Part shown: positions 22,904 through 49,714 of the stretch, in pieces
Layout of the letters: each line of letters starts with the position of its first letter
How positions within the stretch are numbered: the stretch's first letter is position 1
From: Neonectria sp. B-13
Lineage: Eukaryota; Ascomycota; Sordariomycetes; Hypocreales; Nectriaceae
Assembly (NCBI GenBank): GCA_002682825.1
Contig: NOKP01000023.1
Location: 248,001 to 312,000, forward strand
Length of the DNA stretch: 64,000 bases
Direction of reading: 5' to 3'
The notes under the pieces: model-generated
Seen by the model: only the letters and a program-made list of their open reading frames with translations
What the model was told of the DNA's origin: nothing
The model's database searches: none
Translations under genes and position numbers: made by a program

Positions 22904-23026
22904 GCTCATTTGGTCTAATGGTAAGTTTCATCTATCAACCAATAAATAACCCTGTACTAACATCCATCAAGGTTAGGATCCACGCCTTCCAAGCGTGGGG
23001 TCGGAGTTCGATTCTCCGGATGAGCA
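22904..23026 (+). tRNA. tRNA-Gly(UCC), copy 1, with D-loop intron
   Basis: Halves 22904-22920 and 22972-23026 join to a 72-base tRNA. The acceptor stem is GCTCATT/GATGAGC, the anticodon stem CACGC/GCGTG with loop CTTCCAA (anticodon TCC), and the T stem CGGAG/CTCCG around TTCGATT. The anticodon loop is not interrupted. Instead a 51-base insert (22921-22971) splits the D-loop after TCTAATG. It starts GTAAGT, has a perfect TACTAAC at 22955-22961 and ends AG, 11 bases after the branch A. These are spliceosomal, not tRNA-type, signals. The A box is almost complete upstream of the insert and the B box is intact. Seven Ts at 23030-23036 would stop RNA polymerase III. Confidence 0.85.
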
Positions 23027-23131
23027 ATCTTTTTTTCTCACTCGTAGATTTTTGCTTCTTTTTTTATTTTAAACCAGGTGGATGGGGACATATACCTCCA
23101 ATTCCTGCGTTACTATCACTCACCAGTAAAA

Positions 23132-23257
23132 GCTCATTTGGTCTAATGGTAAGATGCACTTCTGTCTTTGATATATATCTCAGTTTATTAACACCTTGTT
23201 AGGTTAGGATCCACGCCTTCCAAGCGTGGGGTCGGAGTTCGATTCTCCGGATGAGCA
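23132..23257 (+). tRNA. tRNA-Gly(UCC), copy 2, with D-loop intron
   Basis: Halves 23132-23148 and 23203-23257 are identical to those of copy 1, base for base. The insert 23149-23202 is 54 bases, starts GTAAGA, holds ATTAAC at 23187-23192 and ends TTAG. Apart from its ends and the branch-like word it shows little likeness to the copy 1 insert. A run of five Ts follows at 23263-23267. Confidence 0.85.
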
Positions 23258-23355
23258 GTTTCTTTTTCTATTTTTACACTTTTGCTTCTTTCCCAACTAG
23301 ATGGAGGGGCCGATATATGTCCAAATATCCTTGTCCTTACTATCAACCAGTGCAA

Positions 23356-23484
23356 GCTCATTTGGTCTAATGGTAAGATGCACCGCTAGCTCGGTTAAAA
23401 ACCCTCAGTTAATTAACACCTCTCTTCAGGTTAGGATCCACGCCTTCCAAGCGTGGGGTCGGAGTTCGATTCTCCGGATGAGCA
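23356..23484 (+). tRNA. tRNA-Gly(UCC), copy 3, with D-loop intron
   Basis: Halves 23356-23372 and 23430-23484 are again identical to the other copies. The insert 23373-23429 is 57 bases, starts GTAAGATGCAC like copy 2, holds ATTAAC at 23412-23417 and ends TTCAG. A T run follows at 23489-23493. The three genes are 228 and 224 bases apart, in the same orientation. Confidence 0.85.
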
Positions 23485-23712
23485 TTTATTTTTGCCAAAT
23501 TTTCAGTTTTACTCTCTTTTACTTTTGCCGTTGCTTGGCGTTTGACTGCGTTGTCCGCATTGTTGCTCCCGTTCACATTGATAGCTTCTCTTTGCCCAAC
23601 ACAGCCTGGGTCAACAGTATAATTAAGATCCTCAGGCAGGACTTCAGGCTGTGTCACCAATGCATTGTCAGCCGATTGGGAGACCTCGTTGGCGGAGGCC
23701 GCCCGCAGTGAG

Positions 23713-36841: not shown

Positions 36842-39666
36842 GATGAGAGACAAATGGAAGCTTCAATCAATGTCTTAAGATCAGGCCGAGGAAGAAGAAA
36901 GAAAAACTGGAATGGGGGAGTCGAGGGTATCCGTCGACTTACGTACGCCCCACTAGTCCGGGACGGCTCTCTGGTATCTCGACAAGGGATGGAATGTTGG
37001 CAGCAGTCCTAGTATGTAGGGGAAACAGGTTGCAGGACAAAGATGAGGCAGGGGCGTTAGACCTAATACGAGTAGCACGGCTTATCGTGGTTCTGCAAGG
37101 CCGGGAGAGAGATATAATGATATGCAACGATTCGGTAGTACGGTTGAAGCCATGTGCCTATCAGTCTGCAGAGCTGGCCGTGATTCTGAGGGCCAGCGCA
37201 ACGAAGCGTCGGGACTAGATGCAGGAGCCACAACTTGATGTGACCGAGTCTAAGGCAATGTAGGTACCGAGAGTGAGGGCCGAGGGATAGAGAGATAGAG
37301 GGGACAAATGGGGACATCATGCGCTTCCAAGGGACGACCCAGACGGCCAGACACGACCCAGACAGCCGACAGGCACGGGTATAATTAGGAGCATTTTTGG
37401 GGAGTATTCCCAAGCTCATCCTTCTACCCATGACCTGACAAGTGCAGGTCTAGGAGGACGCTACTCCGTAGGTGGGACGGGCGGGCCCCTGAAGCCCCCG
37501 CCAGCGTTGCGTTGAAGACTGATGAACCCATGAATGAGCCCCTGACCCAACACAACCAAGCAGGAAGTAACATGCAGACCGACGAAACATGGCCGGAGAG
37601 ACAGACAGTAGCTCTCAGGGAGTCGTCAATCAGGGGGGCTCGGCGGACCCGGCCCACGAGGCCTCTTTTTGTGGCCTCGATAGTCAAGAAGGTGGGTTGT
37701 TCCCACTTGTTGTGCTCTGCCGAGAGAATCCCTCGGACCTCAATCCCCTCATCACGACCGCGCCCCCGGGACCGGCGACCGGGCAAAGGCGGGATCCCGT
37801 GGTTTCAACGGCCGACTGTCGGTGGTCTGAAGGCCGGAGAAGCCGCTGCCGCCCCCTCCGCACGCCACCTTCGATATACGACCAACGACGGACTGGGGAT
37901 TCGCCCACGATATACATAGGCAGTAATTAGTACATGATGGGTGGGCAGGTCGATCAAACAAGCTCCAGCCCAACCGAGACGGCACATGAACTATGGCCGA
38001 GCGGATGTCCGTGGACGACGGGCCGCCCCCGTCCATCTGCACATCTGCGCCAAACCCACGCCATCGACCAGGTTCCTGACTTGCCCAGGTCCTCTTGGTG
38101 CTCGCGGTGGCTCCAACGGGTGCGCTAAGAGGCGTGGCAACTGCAGGCCTCCATGCGGCGCCGCCCGTTCCCTAAGCTCGCAAGCTCCAATGGGAAAACA
38201 ACGGGGCGCCGGCCGGGGAGGATGCCGGGGGTGCGGACCGGGGACAGAGAGGCCGGGGGAGGCCGGGGTCCGGCCAGATGGGCCATGGCTCCCTAAAACG
38301 CCAAAGTCCTTGAACTGCAACCCCATCCACACCGGGGATTCCACACTCAGTCACCAATTGTATTCGTACTACGCATGGAGTGTTGTTGGCAGTGAAGAGT
38401 CTGTGCCTCAATGCCTGTATATTCCTACGGTAGGATGGGGTGGGGTTGATAGCGCGGACTGGGGTGTTTCTCTTGGCTGTCTACCATCTGTCTCCCACTC
38501 TCCCACTCTTCCTCTGTCGTGCAGCATCCTAACGGCGACCAATTCCAGCAACAACGAAGCCAACGACGCCACCCGGGCAGGGCCGCTGCAGGCCTGGCAA
38601 CCTGCAGACTATTATAGCGACTGCGGACCTGCACTAACTATTAACGTGGGACGCGACATGACGGCGTGGAACCTTGGCCCTTAGTCCTTGGCCCTGACTT
38701 GACTCCCAGGCCCTTGACCTTGACCCTCCGTGGAGGAGCCCACACGGCGTGTCTCGCAGCTGCAATCGCAGTCCCTCAAACGTCCAAGTCCAGGCCCTTG
38801 ATGAGCTCGCGATCGACATGCCCCTCGTCGTTCTGTCGTGTGGTTGGGAATCGAAACCGGTCGACCCGTTCGCCATTCTGTCGCAACCAACAACACGCTC
38901 CACAATGCCCGCGATAGACCATGATGGACCACTCCAAGACCCCTCCAAGACCCCTCCAAGTCGCCCTCGAAAGCTGGTTCCGCCTCGTATGTGGTAGTCA
39001 TCTCCGGCGGGCACGCCCCACGTCCTCCCGTTCCGCTGACGATTCTGTCTCTCCTCTACCCATGTTGATTGTCTCATTGGGGTCGTCGTCCAACGCCCAC
39101 CTTGGCTGACTCGCCGCTGCAAGCTCGTCCTAAGCTGCGTTGGGCTGGGGCTCTGTTGTCTCGGCCCCCGCATAATCGAAGCATTCCGTGGAGCAAGTCA
39201 AACGCTCTGGTCCAAAGAGGCCCCCTGCGGCTCCGGTGGGCTTGGCATTGATGGGAGCGCAGGATCGAGAGACAGACCTGAAGCAATGGCACGTACGTAC
39301 GAAGTGCAAACATACCTAACTACCGCTGCTGCCGATCCAAGGGTCCTCCCGTCGTGGGTTATCGGAGCATCCAATCCCCATTCCACTACGTACCACGTCC
39401 TGCTACTACGTAGTACTCGTAGTCTGTACCTTTAAACCCTTGGCCTGGCACCTTCGGACCCGGGCGGTAGCCATGAATCCCTGTTGACCATTTCTGGGCC
39501 CTCTCGCTTAAGGACCGGCTCATTGTGCCATATCTTGCTCCATGTCTTGCTGTCTATCAGACCATTGCTTCTCCACGATCTGCTCTTGAACTTCCTTGAA
39601 AACGGTTCCTCCCACCGTGATCAAAACCCCAACTTCCTCCTCGAGTCCCAAGACATATTCACAGAC
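36842..39666. other. Long intergenic region upstream of the HR-PKS
   Basis: About 2.8 kb between divergently transcribed hydrolase and PKS genes. Frames on both strands are Arg/Pro/Ser-rich, overlap one another and carry no motifs, so none is called. A direct short repeat (gacccctccaa units) lies at about 38938-38960. Near 39385-39430 there are nested palindromes built on CTACGTA and GTACTCGTAG. This region presumably contains both promoters. Confidence 0.55.
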
Positions 39667-42600
39667 ATGACCATGGACTCGAGTCCCAACGCTACCGGTG
39701 CCACTGCACCGCCAACACATAATGGAAATGGAACCAGCGGCCATACCGGCCAAGAGCCCATTGCCATTGTCTCCGTGGCTTGTCGACTCCCGGGCCACTG
39801 CATGAACCCCCAACAACTATGGGAGTTTCTCATCAATGGAGGTGTAGCTACCTCCAATTCCCCTCCCGAGTCGAGGTTCAACATCAAGGGCCACTTCGAT
39901 GGCTCACGCAAGACTCACACCATGGTCTCGCCTGGAGGCATGTTCATCGAGGACATCGACCTGCAGGCCTTTGACGCCCAGTTCTTCAACGTCAACAGAG
40001 CAGACACAATTGCCATGGAGCCCCAACAACGTCAGATTCTCGAAGTGGTGTATGAGTGTCTCGAGAACGGAGGCGTTACCCTCGAGAGTCTGACTGGAAA
40101 AGAGGTTGGATGCTTTGCGGCGAGTTACGCAGTTGGTCAGTACTCCCCCGAAACGCCGCTCCCGCCCAGAAAAAGCAAGTTTTGCTGATCCATGCCGCCA
40201 TGTTGTAGATTTTGGTGACCTTCAGGCCAGGGATCCCGAGGATAGAGCCGGGGGTATCTCGATGGGCATTGGCCGTTCTATTTTGAGTAACAGAATCAGC
40301 CACTTTTTGAACATCAAAGGTCCCAGGTGAGTGCAGCAAAAGAGCCTTTTGCGACTATGACGCTGATCAATTTCTCACAGTATGACCATTGACACGGCCT
40401 GCTCTGGCGGCCTGGTGTCCCTCGATGTTGCTTGCAAATACCTACAGGCAGGGTTGATGGATGGAGCGATCGTGGCAAGCGCCAACATCAATCTGGATCC
40501 TGAACACACAATAGAGTCAGGATCCTTACGAGGAACAATCTCGGAGTCTGGAAAGTGCCACACGTTCGATAACAAGGCGGACGGCTACGTCAAGTCCGAG
40601 GCCGTAAACTGCGTCTATGTCAAGAGATTGCGAGACGCAATACGCGATGGAGACCCCATCAGAGCCATTATCCGCGCGACCTCGTCTAACAGCGATGGCC
40701 GCACTCCTGGCATCGCCAGTCCCAGCTCCGAAGCACAGGCAGCTGCTGCTATGGCTGCATACGAGCGCGCCGGGATCTCAGATCTCAGCAGGACGGGATA
40801 TCTCGAGTGCCATGGTACAGGCACCCCTGCTGGCGATCCCATCGAGGTGAATGGAGCCAGCATGGTCTTTAAGGCCTCGCACCCTGCCGACGACCCTCTT
40901 ATTGTCGGATCTATCAAGAGCAACATTGGCCACTCGGAGAACGCGGCCGGAATTTCCTCGCTTCTCAAGGCCACCCTTGCCGTGGAGAGCGGTCTCATCC
41001 CTGGAAACCCAACTTTCATCACCCCTAATCCCAAGATCGACTTTGCGAAGCTGCATCTACGCCCTTCACGGGTAGCCGTTAACTGGCCCAAGAGCAAGAA
41101 TGACTACCGCCGAGCCAGTGTCAACTCCTTTGGCTTTGGCGGCACCAACGCCCACGCAATCGTTGAGTCCTCAGAGCACTTCCTTCGAGAACAGAATATC
41201 CAGCCTCACGTTCAATACCTCAGCTCCTACTCAGAAGAGAGCGACGACTTCTTTGACGATGACGACGAAGAAGTTGACGAGTCTGCTGGCGGTGCAGCAA
41301 GACCGCAAGTCGTGGTTTTCTCCGCCAACAACCTCGACTCACTTAAGGCATACCTGAAGAAGTTGCGGGCGCACTTCCTCAACCCTCGAGTTAGCATCAA
41401 GCTCTCGGACTTGACATATACACTTTCAGAGCGGCGAACCCGCCTCTATCACCGTGGCTTTGCTGTTATTACAAAGGGCCCGGATGCTAAGATCGACGAC
41501 ATCTCCGCCGATGCTGTCATCTTTGGCAAGCAAGCAGCAGACCCGCCAAAGATTGGCTTCGTTTTCACCGGCCAGGGAGCACAGTGGCCGCAGATGGGAC
41601 GTGATCTACTATCCGCTTTCCCCGAAACTGCGGGCTCTATTATTAAACGACTCGATCGCGCCCTGCAGGACCTTTCACCGGAAGTCAGACCAACCTGGTC
41701 CATTTATTCCGAGCTTACTGAGTCGCGGTCCTCAGAGCACATGCGTCTGCCAGAGTTCTCTCAGCCCTTGGTTACAGCACTTCAGCTTGCTCTTGCTGAG
41801 GTGTTGAAGCTATGGGGTGTTGCCCCCCGGGCAGTCGTTGGTCACTCGTCGGGTGAGATTGCTGCCGCCTGCACGGCTGGTCTTCTTACCCCCGAGCAAG
41901 CCATCAAGATCGCCTACCTGCGTGGCTTTGCTGGAAAGGAAGCTACACCATCTGAGCCCCTGAGCATGATGGCTGTCGGTATGGGACCTGAAAAGGTCCA
42001 GCCTTACCTTGACACCATTAACCCGAGCGGAGAGAAGCCCGCAGTTGAAATTGCTTGTTACAACAGTCCTTCCAGTATTACTCTTGCTGGCACTGTTGAT
42101 GCACTTAAAGCTGTCGGCGATGCTATACAAGCTGATGGCCACTTCGCCCGCTTGCTGCAAGTGAACCTGGCTTATCACTCACGATATATGGGACCTATCA
42201 GTGAGGCCTACGAGAAACTGCTGGTTGATAACAAGTGTCTCGAGGGCTCTCCCCAGTCTTCTGGATCTGTCAAGATGTTCTCGTCCGTTCTTCAAGAGAA
42301 GCTTGCTCCCGAAGCAGAGACCGGAGTCGATTACTGGAAGGCCAACATGGTTTCTCCTGTTCGATTTGCTGATGCCTGTCTGGAGTTGGTGAAAGACCAG
42401 GAGGATGGAGCCGACTTTTTGATTGAACTCGGCCCAAGCAACGCTCTCGCTGGTCCCGTTGGGCAAATCAAGAAGACTCTGCCCAACGATGGTGCCAACA
42501 TCACATACGCCTCTGCCACCAAGCGTGGAGCTGACACTCTCCAGGCACTGTACTCAGTTGCTGGTCACTTGTTCATTGCTGGCGCGGACATCCCACTCAC

Positions 42601-45600
42601 AAAGGTGAACAGTGGCGAGGGCGTTACTTCAACCAAGCCCTCCGTCCTGATTGATCTTCCCAACTATTCTTGGAATCACACGACCAAGTACTGGCACGAA
42701 AGCGAAGCCAGCAAGGAATGGCGTTTCCGCCGGTTCGTGCACCACGACCTTCTCGGAAGCAAGATCCTGGGAACCTCCTGGAACGCACCCTCTTGGAAGA
42801 AGCCCCTCAAGCTGTCCGACTTCCCTTGGCTCAGCGACCATAAGATGGGCACGGATGTCGTTTTCCCTGGAGCGGGCTACATCGCCATGGCCATTGAAGC
42901 TGTCTACCAGACGACGTTTTCTGTCGCAACGGACGACGAGGCAAAGGAATTGGAAGCCGAGTCTTACCACTACCAGCTTCGAGACGTCAAGTTCTCCAAG
43001 GCCCTTGTCCTGGACGAGGCAACCGATTCTGCTGTCATGCTGAACCTGACTCCTACCCAGGGCCTTAAGTCAAAGTGGTACAAGTTCGAAGTCATCTCGA
43101 CGGTTGGTGGCGAAGCCCTTACCACCACTAGCCACAGCACTGGCTTCGTTCGACTCAACAAGGGTCTATTCAAGAACCCTCCTTCAGACCCAGAGTCTCT
43201 GAAGCTTCCCCTGAAGCACACCGCCCCCGCCAAGTTGTGGTACGGTTCTATGGCAGATGCTGGCTACGGATTTGGCCCGTCTTTTCAGAAGCAGTTGGAA
43301 GTGGAAGTCACTCTGGGTGAGCCCAAGAGCCGTTCCTTGGTCAACTTGACCTCGCCCCCATCTAAGTGGAAGCAGTCCTATTACCCTCTGCACCCAGTAG
43401 TTATGGATGGCTGCTTCCAAACGGTCTCTCCGTCTCTGTGGCATGGAGATCGTAGTGCTGTTGACTCTCTTCTGATCCCAGCAAGCTTGGACAGCCTGAC
43501 CATCTCTGCATTCCCTCAGGGTCAACTGCCCGAGGTTGGTCTCTCCGTATCATCCGCCAAGTACCTTGGCCGAGGACGCTTGGAAGACAAGATCCACTAC
43601 TCTTCTTACGCCTCCGTCTACAATCCCGAGACTGGTAATGCCATCTTCGATATGAAGGGACTACGGTACCACCGTCTTGAGACCCAGAATACGTCCTCGG
43701 AGCCGTACCCATACACCCGCCTGGAATGGAAGCCCGACTTCAGTCAGCTGCGTGAAACCGGCAAGCTCCAAGCTGCCCTTGAAAGCAGCAAAAATAAACA
43801 GGCATCTTCTGTCCATAACGTCATTGATTTTGCTGCCCACAAGCAGCCTCATCTTGCCGTGTTGGAGATCAACCTGACCCCCAACGACACATCCAGCTTG
43901 TGGCTCGAGAAGCCCGGAGCCAAGCACGCGACTCGCGCGGCTTGCCGGGCTTATCAACTGATCAGCAAATTCCCTGATGCTGTTCTCGAGGCCGAGAATC
44001 GCTACGCCGGGTCTGCTAATGCCAAGTTCACTCTCCTCGACCCCACATTGGCGGACTTTGAGCCGTCTCCCGAGTTGTATGATCTTGTTATCGTGAAGCT
44101 CGCTCCCACATCCAGTGCGCAGACTGAAATTCTAAGCACCAATATTGAGAAGCTTGTCGCGGAGAATGGAAATGTGCTGTTTGTACAAGGGCCAGAAAAG
44201 ATTGAGCACCAGACCAATGGCGTGGTCAACGGCGAGGTCAAGGAACTCACAAATGGTGAGGCCGTCGAGGATAGCGCACCTACCAACGGAGAGACGAACG
44301 GAGAGATCAACGGAGAGACCAACGGAGAAGCCAATGGAGAGAGCAATGGGGAAACGAACGGAGAGGTCAGTGGAAAGCTCGCCGAGGAAACTGGCGATAT
44401 TTCTGCTTCTCTTGCAAAGTCCGGCTTCAACAGCATTCAGGCTCTTACCAGCGATGCTCAGGATATCATGTTTGTTGCTTCAAAGGCTTCATCAAAGGAT
44501 GCTCAGCGTGGTGAAATTGCTCTTGTTCGCCTTGCCGAAACCTCGGAGATCTCCTCCCTTGCTGCCAAGTCTCTAGGCGAGCTTGGCTGGTCCCTTACTG
44601 AGCACGTCTCCTCCGTTGAGGCTGTCCCGCCGAAGAGCACCGTGCTCGTCATTGATGAGCTTGCGCAGCCTCTTCTGACGACCGTCACAGATGCCCAATG
44701 GACGGAGGTGAAGGAACTCGTCAGGAAGGAGTGCAACATTCTTTGGGTCACTCAAGGCGCACAAATGGTTGTCAAGAACCCTCACGCCTCTATCGCCCAA
44801 GGCGTGTTCCGCAGCGTCCGGTCCGAGGAGCCTCTCCTCAACATCATCACTCTTGACGTAGAGTCCAGTGATGCCGAAGCGCTTCCCAACACTGTTGCAG
44901 CGGTCGACTCTCTCCTTCAACTAGCCCAGAACAAGCCTACCCAGGACAGCAACGATTTCGAATTCGTTGAGCGTGGTGGTATTCTCTACATTCCCCGAAT
45001 TCTGCCAGATGAGGGTCTCCGCTCAGCACAGGTTGAAGGCCAGGGAACCGCTCGCACCGTTGACCTTCACGCTTCAAAGTCCACTATTCGCCTCATCACT
45101 GGGAAGCGTGGCGACATTGACTCTTTGCACTGGACTGAGATAGGCTCTAGTGAGGTTGCAGAGCTGGAGACTGGCTACCTGGAGGTGGAGATCTATGCGT
45201 CCAGTCTCAACTTCAAGGATGTTATCGTGGCCATGGGCATCATCCCCGAGAACGAACATCTGCTTGGTCTTGATGGTGCCGGTATCGTCACCCGAGTTGG
45301 TCCTGGTGTCACCGATAGACATGTCGGCCAGCGCGTTGCCGTCCTGGAGAGGGGCACGCTTGCAAACCGTGTCATCACCCCTCGAGAGTACACCATGACT
45401 ATCCCAGACAGCATGTCTTTCGAGGAAGGCGCCACAATGCCTCTGGTCTTTGTCACCAGCATGGAGTCTCTCTTTGGTCTTGCAAACCTCCGACGTGGAC
45501 AAAAGGTCCTCATCCATTCTGCTGCTGGTGGAATTGGTATCTCGAGTATTCAGCTGTGCAAGTACAAGGAGTGTGAGGTAAGTACATCGCGAAACCCCTC

Positions 45601-47510
45601 CACAGCAAGGGCCTTGGATTTTGCAATAAAATTGCTAACATTTGTTACCTAGGTTTTCGCAACTGTTGGATCTGACGACAAGCGCCAATTCCTTAAGGAC
45701 TCCTTCGGGATCCCCGATGATCACATCTTCTCATCGCGAAGCACAAAGTTCGCCAGGCAGATACTCGACGCCACCAATGGCTACGGTGTGGACGTTATCC
45801 TCAACTCCCTCACTGGCGAGCTGCTGGAGGAGAGCTGGCGCATCATCGCAACCGCTGGCACCATGGTTGAAATCGGCAAGCAGGACATTCTCGAGCGCCG
45901 TTCCCTGCCAATGGAGCCTTTTGGACGAAACGCCTCGTTCCGCGCTCTGGATCTCTCTCTGAGAGAATTCCCCAGGAACACTGTGGGAAAGTAAGTGTCG
46001 AGTGCATTGAACCCACGCCTACATCAAGTTCTAACATCAAGTTAGGCACCTGGATCTTCTGTCCGAGCTCGTCGAGCAAGGCCACATGAAGCCTATTAAT
46101 CCCATCAAGGGCTTCTCGTTTGAGGAGATTGAAGATGCATTCCGGTTCCTTGGCAGTGGAAAGCACATTGGAAAGCTGATCATTTCGAATGGGGACAAGG
46201 AGACGGCCCAAGTCAAGGTAGGTTATGCCTGAACTGGATCCTGCGGGTGAACATGCTAACAGTCTTCCTCAGGTCCAACCGCCCAAGCGGAGTCTCGAGA
46301 GGGCGTTGAACCCTGAGCACTCGTACCTCGTCGTGGGAGGTCTAAAGGGTCTTTGTGGAAGCCTGGCGATCTGGCTCGCGAAGAATGGAGCCAAGCACCT
46401 GGCGATCATGTCTCGAAGTGGCTCCGCTGATGAGAAATCCCGTGGAGTCATCAAGGATATCGAGGCGCAGGGGTGCTCTGTTGAACTCCTCAAGGGAGAT
46501 GTCGCGGATGTTGACGACGTGCGCCGTTGCTTGAAGTCGACGTCGGTGCCAATTGGCGGTATCGTTCAGGGAGCCATGGTTCTTCGGGTGAGTCTCACGA
46601 TAGCTTACATGGACGCTGTCAACAATCACTAACCTGCAAACAGGACCGCATGTTCGACTCCATGACCCACCAGGAATACCACGAGGCAATTGCCTGCAAG
46701 GTCCAGGGAACTTGGAATCTTCACACCGTGTCCCAGGAGCTCAAGCTTCCCCTTTCTTTCTTTACCATGCTGTCGTCCATCTCCGGCATTATCGGACAGA
46801 AGGGCCAAGCCAACTACTCTGGCGGGAACACGTTCCTCGACTCGCTGGCAGCCTACCGCCGCGACACCCTGGGACTACCCGCAACCACCGTCAACTTGGG
46901 TATCATCGAGGGCATTGGGTATTTGGCTGATCACGACGACGTGCACAAGCAGCTTACTCGCAACTTGGACACTTGGGCGCCCATCAACGAAGCCAAGCTC
47001 CGTCGCATCTTCGAGTTCTCAGTGTACCAGCAACATCAGGATCTCGCCCGCCAGCCAAGCCCGGCCAGTGTCACTCAGATGATCACCGGCATGCAGATCC
47101 CCCTGCCTGGCGACACCGATCTCTTCCGCGATGCCCGCTTCACTGGCCTCCACATCACCACCGGAAAGGAGGGCGATGGCGCCAAGGCCGGCGACCGCGA
47201 CGACAAGGAGCTGCAGACATTCCTCCTCCTGATAAAGACCAAGGGAACCGATCCCAACGCTCTCCTCACGGCCGCCGTGGAGCTCGCCAACAGCAAGTTC
47301 ACCAAGCTCCTGCGTCTCGCTGAGCCCATGGAGCCGAGCCGCCCGATGAGCATCTACGGTCTTGACTCGCTGGTGGCCGTCGAGTTCCGCAACTGGGCCC
47401 GTACCACGTTGAGTGTTGAGTTTTCGACGCTGGAGATTACCAATGCGCAGAGCTTGATTGTGCTGTGTGAGAAGATTGTGTCCAAGGCTGCGGCTGCTTT
47501 GGCTGCTTGA
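39667..47510 (+). CDS. Highly reducing polyketide synthase (HR-PKS)
   Basis: Seven exons (39667-40135, 40209-40326, 40381-45577, 45653-45990, 46046-46217, 46273-46587, 46644-47510) join in phase to 2491 residues. The order is KS from about residue 31 (DTACSGG with Cys203; His340 in [11 protein letters not shown]; His380 in [10 protein letters not shown]); AT (GHSSGE, Ser685); DH (His1016 in DHKMG, Asp1205 in MDGCFQ); a methyltransferase-position region without a SAM site; ER (HSAAGGIG near 1908); KR ([10 protein letters not shown] near 2116, Tyr2261 in ANYSGGN); and ACP (YGLDSL, Ser2445). It would extend an acyl chain with malonyl-CoA and can reduce it fully. No thioesterase follows, so release needs a partner such as the hydrolase at 35877-36841. 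Start chosen at MTMDSSPN; the upstream frame is leader. Confidence 0.96.
44212..44370 (+). repeat. Asn-Gly-Glu repeat inside the PKS
   Basis: Residues about 1473-1526 contain roughly ten TNGE/NGE-type units encoded by imperfect 12-base repeats (for example aacggagagacc, aacggagaagcc). It lies between the degenerate methyltransferase region and the ER domain and is probably a flexible linker. Confidence 0.9.
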
Positions 47511-49603: not shown

Positions 49604-49714
49604 CGACACAGACAGGATTCGAACCTGCGCCTCCGAGGAGACATCCTTACAAGTTGTAACTTGTGGAGTAGCAATTATAGCAGGGATGCGCGTTAACCAC
49701 TCCGCCACTGTGTC
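49604..49714 (-). tRNA. tRNA-Ser(GCU) with canonical intron
   Basis: Minus-strand tRNA with acceptor stem GACACAG/CTGTGTC, discriminator G, D-arm GGCGGAGTGGTTAACGC, and anticodon stem CATCC/GGATG with anticodon GCT at 49681-49679. A 30-base intron (49677-49648) sits between positions 37 and 38, the normal eukaryotic place. A long variable arm (about TCTCCTCGGAGGC) and the T arm CAGG-TTCGAAT-CCTG follow. A run of eight Ts downstream (TTTTTTTT near 49592-49599) would end transcription. It is a useful in-window control for the unusual tRNA-Gly genes. Confidence 0.93.

Follow-up and report, generated by a model that had tools for sequence, protein, structure and literature searches.

Tandem tRNA-Gly(UCC) genes with putative spliceosomal introns in the D-loop in a Neonectria genome

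Three tRNA-Gly(UCC) genes lie in tandem and in the same orientation at positions 22904-23484 of the window (the whole 64,000-nucleotide stretch of Neonectria sp. B-13 DNA analysed here), each interrupted within the D-loop by an insert that carries the signals of an mRNA-type intron. The best explanation is probably that these are functional genes, the only Gly(UCC) genes detected, and that their RNA polymerase III (Pol III) pre-tRNA is spliced by the spliceosome. Spliceosomal maturation, or else a new route, had been suggested by a first-pass annotation of the same DNA. The former is favoured by the gene structure, an identical joined tRNA, exons and splice signals (GT-AG included) that appear to have been kept by selection, the absence of a bulge-helix-bulge (BHB) motif and the failure of our searches to find an uninterrupted copy, whereas the spliceosomal step itself is what we infer from them.

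The existence of the three genes is confirmed, and the 51-, 54- and 57-base D-loop inserts of the first-pass annotation were recovered with exactly the same coordinates and lengths (Table 1). Each copy consists of 17 bases, the insert and a further 55 bases, and the trio spans fewer than 590 bases with start-to-start spacings of 228 and 224 bases. The assembly comprises 60.9 Mb in 123 contigs; the window sits in contig C43, and the Gly(UCC) locus is single there. For an aminopeptidase encoded in the window, identity is 93% with the Neonectria ditissima protein, 92% with the Cylindrodendrum hubeiense protein (across 88% of the aminopeptidase) and 85% with the Ilyonectria robusta protein, so that the organism is probably a member of the Nectriaceae close to Neonectria. 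The window also contains, on the plus strand at 39484-47510, a large polyketide synthase gene of the reducing type that is divided among several open reading frames (ORFs), recognized by the Pfam domains in the ORF at 40382-45649.

Table 1. Features of the tRNA-Gly(UCC) locus, in window coordinates
Feature	Positions	Strand	Details and basis
tRNA-Gly(UCC) copy 1	22904-23026	+	exon 1 22904-22920, exon 2 22972-23026; exact exon match, ARAGORN on the joined 72-mer
D-loop intron, copy 1	22921-22971	+	51 bases, GTAAGT...TACTAAC (22955-22961)...AAG
7-T run, likely Pol III terminator of copy 1	23030-23036	+	sequence; role inferred
tRNA-Gly(UCC) copy 2	23132-23257	+	exon 1 23132-23148, exon 2 23203-23257; exon match, ARAGORN
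D-loop intron, copy 2	23149-23202	+	54 bases, GTAAGA...ATTAAC (23187-23192)...TAG
5-T run, likely Pol III terminator of copy 2	23263-23267	+	sequence; role inferred
tRNA-Gly(UCC) copy 3	23356-23484	+	exon 1 23356-23372, exon 2 23430-23484; exon match, ARAGORN
D-loop intron, copy 3	23373-23429	+	57 bases, GTAAGA...ATTAAC (23412-23417)...CAG
5-T run, likely Pol III terminator of copy 3	23489-23493	+	sequence; role inferred

Once the insert is removed, a complete UCC cloverleaf is obtained from every copy: the joined 72-mer is identical in all three and is called by ARAGORN as tRNA-Gly(tcc), with all four arms and a standard cloverleaf. In the numbering assigned in this analysis, the insert separates G18 from G19 and should thereby disrupt the contact between D-loop and T-loop. 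The anticodon loop CTTCCAA is uninterrupted, and the inserts are thus not at the canonical 37/38 position. By standard decoding rules, the anticodon UCC reads GGA, which accounts for 65 of the 267 glycine codons in four mechanically defined ORFs of the window.

All three inserts start with GTAAG and end with AG, i.e., they have the form of GT-AG introns with a consensus-like 5' site, and each contains a branch-like word (TACTAAC, ATTAAC and ATTAAC in copies 1-3, respectively), so that every signal named in the first-pass annotation is present in every copy; the presumed branch A precedes the 3' end by 11, 11 and 13 bases. The exon-intron junction can slide over four registers, and in all three copies only register 0 gives GT-AG. 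In random sequence matched in length and composition, a 5' site, a terminal AG and a YTRAC word would occur together at a rate of about 6e-7 to 4e-6 per insert (the product of two simulated rates), and these rates must not be multiplied across the copies because the copies share ancestry and are not independent. The GTAAG pattern was found in tRNA-like D-loops at 56 sites genome-wide against 70 in the reversed control, showing no excess. Three of the 56 are the present genes and four read TGGCCCAGTGGTAAG, three of these four being intronless Thr(CGT) genes, in which GTAAG is a natural part of the D-loop; the 5' site alone is therefore little proof.

The inserts were also compared with candidate introns of this genome; the first-pass annotation had described the branch words as resembling those of introns in protein-coding genes of the window. 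In 208 kb of nonredundant sequence, GTAAGT was followed by CTRAC and YAG at 13 of 66 sites, compared with 1-3% for four decoy words. The distance from the branch A to the intron end was 9-15 bases in 33 of the 45 candidate introns of the genome sample, and the 11-13 bases of the Gly(UCC) inserts fall in this common range. At the branch position, the pentamer with the strongest enrichment is the CTAAC of copy 1 (21 against 5.1 expected); TTAAC of copies 2 and 3 differs from it by one base and is not enriched there in the genome sample (3 against 3.8 expected). The latter word and the 3' end of the copy 1 intron, which is AAG rather than YAG, are the weak points of the spliceosomal reading.

Several possible sources of the inserts were considered. 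Derivation by partial duplication of the 5' part of the tRNA itself, as might be proposed from the similarity of GTAAGATGCAC to GTTAGGATCCAC of exon 2, was rejected because local alignments scored no better than those of shuffled introns (P 0.82-0.96). Among nine comparisons of introns with upstream flanks, one (the intron of copy 1 with the region upstream of gene 3) gave P 0.014 and the others at least 0.17, and the single low value was treated as chance. With regard to introner-like elements, the 621-base locus matched only itself in a whole-locus search of the kind that skips common words.

Based on these features, a maturation pathway may be proposed. Pol III would transcribe each copy from internal A and B boxes, the final G of the A box presumably being supplied by the first base of the intron (by the general box consensus), and the transcript would end at the nearby run of T, 5-7 T long and beginning no more than 10 bases past the end of every copy. 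U1 would then read GUAAG and U2 the (C/U)UAAC word. Removal of a U2-type intron from between G18 and G19 by the spliceosome would leave a 72-base tRNA that would be trimmed and would then decode GGA (and GGG). Splicing would likely occur before or alongside end processing, because a precursor in which G18 and G19 are parted is probably without the contact between D-loop and T-loop.

A different possibility is that the inserts are ectopic tRNA introns cut by the tRNA endonuclease or by another protein route, the GT-AG appearance being coincidental. Nuclear tRNA introns have been described as protein-spliced and mostly located at 37/38 across eukaryotes (PMC4090602, PMC3978253). The first-pass annotation had taken the 37/38 position as a rule, which is true of most eukaryotes but not of the red alga Cyanidioschyzon merolae and the Guillardia theta nucleomorph, where tRNA introns outside 37/38, including D-arm introns, have been reported (PMC9602550, PMC3978253). 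The Gly(UCC) inserts share this unusual type of location, and such introns lend some credit to a protein route here. According to the same sources, the ectopic introns of C. merolae form BHB-type motifs for the tRNA endonuclease, whereas the Gly(UCC) inserts form none and carry GT-AG and branch signals instead: none of the 12 combinations of copy and register reached four of four central pairs, and the best attempt (register 0) had three of four central and none of three outer pairs, leaving an endonuclease reading unsupported in all four registers of all three copies. The absence of a BHB is not decisive by itself, because many ectopic tRNA introns of the Guillardia nucleomorph are described as having no defined BHB (PMC3978253). 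However, a protein route would leave the invariance of GTAAG, TAAC and AG within the introns unexplained, and we consider it unlikely.

Ordinary tRNA introns are in use in this genome, which also speaks for the availability of a protein route. The tRNA-Ser at 49604-49714 on the minus strand matches the Rfam tRNA model over its full length and has additional bases in its anticodon arm, in agreement with its earlier annotation as a gene with an ordinary nuclear tRNA intron, and anticodon-loop introns were found in several other tRNAs of the assembly. For Gly(GCC), 13 of the 28 rows obtained with a wider pattern belong to one gene family (two rows being mirror copies), and the four members examined are 82 bases long; on inspection, A37 is followed in them by about 11 extra bases, an ordinary anticodon-loop intron. 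Simpler searches were less informative: the first Gly(GCC) pattern gave 14 sites against 11 in the control, and neither of the two sites examined was called as a tRNA; a Gly(GCC) probe had no match in the assembly in a search that skips common words; and a D-arm pattern gave two sites. Canonical 37/38 introns (tRNA-Ser, Gly(GCC)) are therefore present in the same genome as the Gly(UCC) inserts, which differ from them in lying elsewhere in the tRNA, in being longer than the roughly 11-base Gly(GCC) intron and in having mRNA-type signals. It follows that the two glycine isoacceptors use different intron types, in the anticodon loop for Gly(GCC) and of mRNA type in the D-loop for Gly(UCC).

It is also conceivable that the spliceosome acts on a Pol II transcript that spans the cluster, from which RNase P and tRNase Z free the tRNAs. 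The splice signals would then be those of an ordinary Pol II substrate, and three genes in one orientation within 590 bases could be accommodated in a single transcript. On the other hand, a separate T-run lies behind each copy, and each has kept internal A- and B-box-like sequence (judged against the general consensus), features that argue for separate Pol III transcription and make a shared Pol II precursor improbable. A point against the Pol III reading is that splicing of such transcripts was not seen elsewhere in this genome, the U6 gene being uninterrupted and full length (80.6 bits). A second U6-like sequence at C1:5177376-5177481 is weaker (60.6 against 80.6 bits) and may be a variant or a pseudogene.

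Comparison of the three copies suggests that the exons have been maintained. The exons show 0 differences in 72 positions, whereas the introns differ at 27/51, 20/51 and 15/54 positions in the three comparisons (28-53%; Fisher P 2e-13, 1.5e-9 and 8e-7). In their upstream flanks, copies 2 and 3 differ at 35 of 93 positions (P 1e-10). The exons thus appear to be under selection, since they are identical while introns and flanks have diverged, and the divergence of introns and flanks also implies that the duplications are old. Simple gene conversion is an unlikely source of the exon identity, because the introns between the exons would have been evened out as well. Within the introns, the columns of GTAAG, TAAC and AG, which were picked after the alignment had been seen, are invariant (11 of 11) compared with 11 of the 40 other gap-free columns (P 1.5e-5). 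Taken together, the genes look functional, with selection apparently acting on both exons and splice signals.

Neither BLAST nor two pattern searches turned up an uninterrupted Gly(UCC) gene in the 61 Mb assembly. BLAST with the joined tRNA returned only these three genes. The two patterns, which combined U33-UCC-A37 with a T-loop, gave 88 and 44 sites, and their reversed controls 54 and 50. For the first pattern, 30 rows were examined with their loci and then 20 more; beyond the 30, and with the present genes and mirror copies removed, there were 42 distinct rows, 10 of them with G53, and all 10 were examined, G53 being required to pair with C61. For the second pattern, all 36 rows left after removal of eight mirror rows were examined. 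Among 83 distinct UCC-type sites in the examined loci, a single core, common to the trio, had both the anticodon stem and the T stem, and 12 had one stem. As a control of this filter, 19 of 26 distinct ARAGORN tRNAs in these loci passed (one of the 19 being the copy 2 artefact described below), and the seven failures had G37 or an anticodon-loop intron by inspection. In viral and prokaryotic genome collections, where fungi are not expected, exact exon patterns had no match; the nine loci matched by a looser pattern lie on viral contigs and hold tRNA-Gly(UCC)-like genes distinct from that of Neonectria.

These patterns would miss genes with anticodon-loop introns, since Gly(GCC) genes with such introns had escaped the simple patterns. 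When the Gly(UCC) pattern was relaxed to allow for such an intron, there were 159 sites, compared with 137 in the control (matches without flanks, of which the first part was read), and a gene of this kind may exist elsewhere in the assembly. This has a bearing on whether the three loci could be pseudogenes or idle copies, another Gly(UCC) gene having been missed or being absent from the assembly; the first-pass annotation had itself named an intact Gly(UCC) set elsewhere, together with no joined RNA from these loci, as evidence against spliceosomal maturation, and no such set was found by BLAST or by the two U33-UCC-A37 patterns. Besides the possible presence of a gene with an anticodon-loop intron and the use of such introns by Gly(GCC), this alternative could appeal to the quality of the assembly, which has fold-back contigs and may lack sequence. 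Both the BLAST result and the retention of 72 identical exon bases amid diverged introns and flanks argue against it, and it appears very unlikely.

As to the assembly itself, the whole of contigs C114, C59, C36 and C27 and parts of C50 and C105 gave matches at mirrored coordinates on opposite strands, the mirrored coordinates summing to full length + 1 in C114, C59, C36 and C27. Because of these mirrored matches, the contigs look like end-to-end reverse-complement palindromes, which probably arose as fold-back artefacts during assembly and make the 61 Mb an overestimate.

Gene finders handle the unspliced genes poorly. ARAGORN reported no tRNA in unspliced copies 1 and 3, and in copy 2 it called a 75-base Gly(tcc) whose first base, 23183, lies within the insert; with no equivalent in the other copies, this call was taken as an artefact. 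Rfam gave a partial, weak match for copy 1 (29.6 bits against a cut-off of 29) and nothing at threshold for unspliced copies 2 and 3. That the real tRNA begins within the insert, as in the 75-base call, or retains the insert when mature is hardly credible, given that ARAGORN makes no comparable call in copies 1 and 3, that the acceptor stem of the call contains three G-U pairs and that exon 1, which would be useless on this assumption, is the same in all three copies. Finders that make no provision for such introns thus miss or misread genes of this kind, as ARAGORN and Rfam did, and other genomes may therefore hide similar genes with mRNA-type introns in the D-loop. The non-canonical intron search of tRNAscan-SE 2.0 is described for archaea (PMC8450103).

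Spliceosomal introns outside mRNA have precedents. U6 of fission yeast, transcribed by Pol III and interrupted by an mRNA-type intron thought to have arisen by reverse splicing (PMC10484740), had already been cited in the first-pass annotation and stands as a parallel to the predicted Pol III transcripts here, although the host in the present case is a tRNA and not a part of the spliceosome, and the U6 gene of this genome is uninterrupted. A second precedent is the 18S rDNA of ascomycetes, which is reported to carry spliceosomal introns (PMC11889510, PMC11782384); it too is a fungal non-mRNA gene with mRNA-type introns that is not transcribed by Pol II, but its product is an rRNA rather than a tRNA. 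A spliceosomal intron in a nuclear tRNA gene was not recognized in any description among open-licence PMC papers, the literature covered by our search (most subscription papers lie outside it), in line with the earlier statement that none was known. The available text of the tRNA-intron review PMC4090602 contains no word beginning with 'spliceosom', and that of PMC9858662 does not mention Gly, TCC or UCC. One apparent literature match proved to be the words 'non-spliceosomal splicing of tRNAs' in the title of a cited reference. The spliceosomal reading joins two known phenomena, spliceosomal introns in non-mRNA genes and ectopic introns in tRNA genes, in a combination for which no description was found.

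It may well be that, in this free-living eukaryote, an essential tRNA isoacceptor has no genes other than ones with spliceosomal introns, so that decoding of GGA would depend on the spliceosome, with the precursor handed over to U1 and U2 before it folds and matured by a route independent of the Sen endonuclease. If so, this would represent a second, Sen-independent tRNA splicing route, and an uncapped Pol III RNA other than U6 would reach the spliceosome productively. Moreover, the decoding of one codon would be tied to splicing, and translation would thereby be linked directly to splicing capacity.
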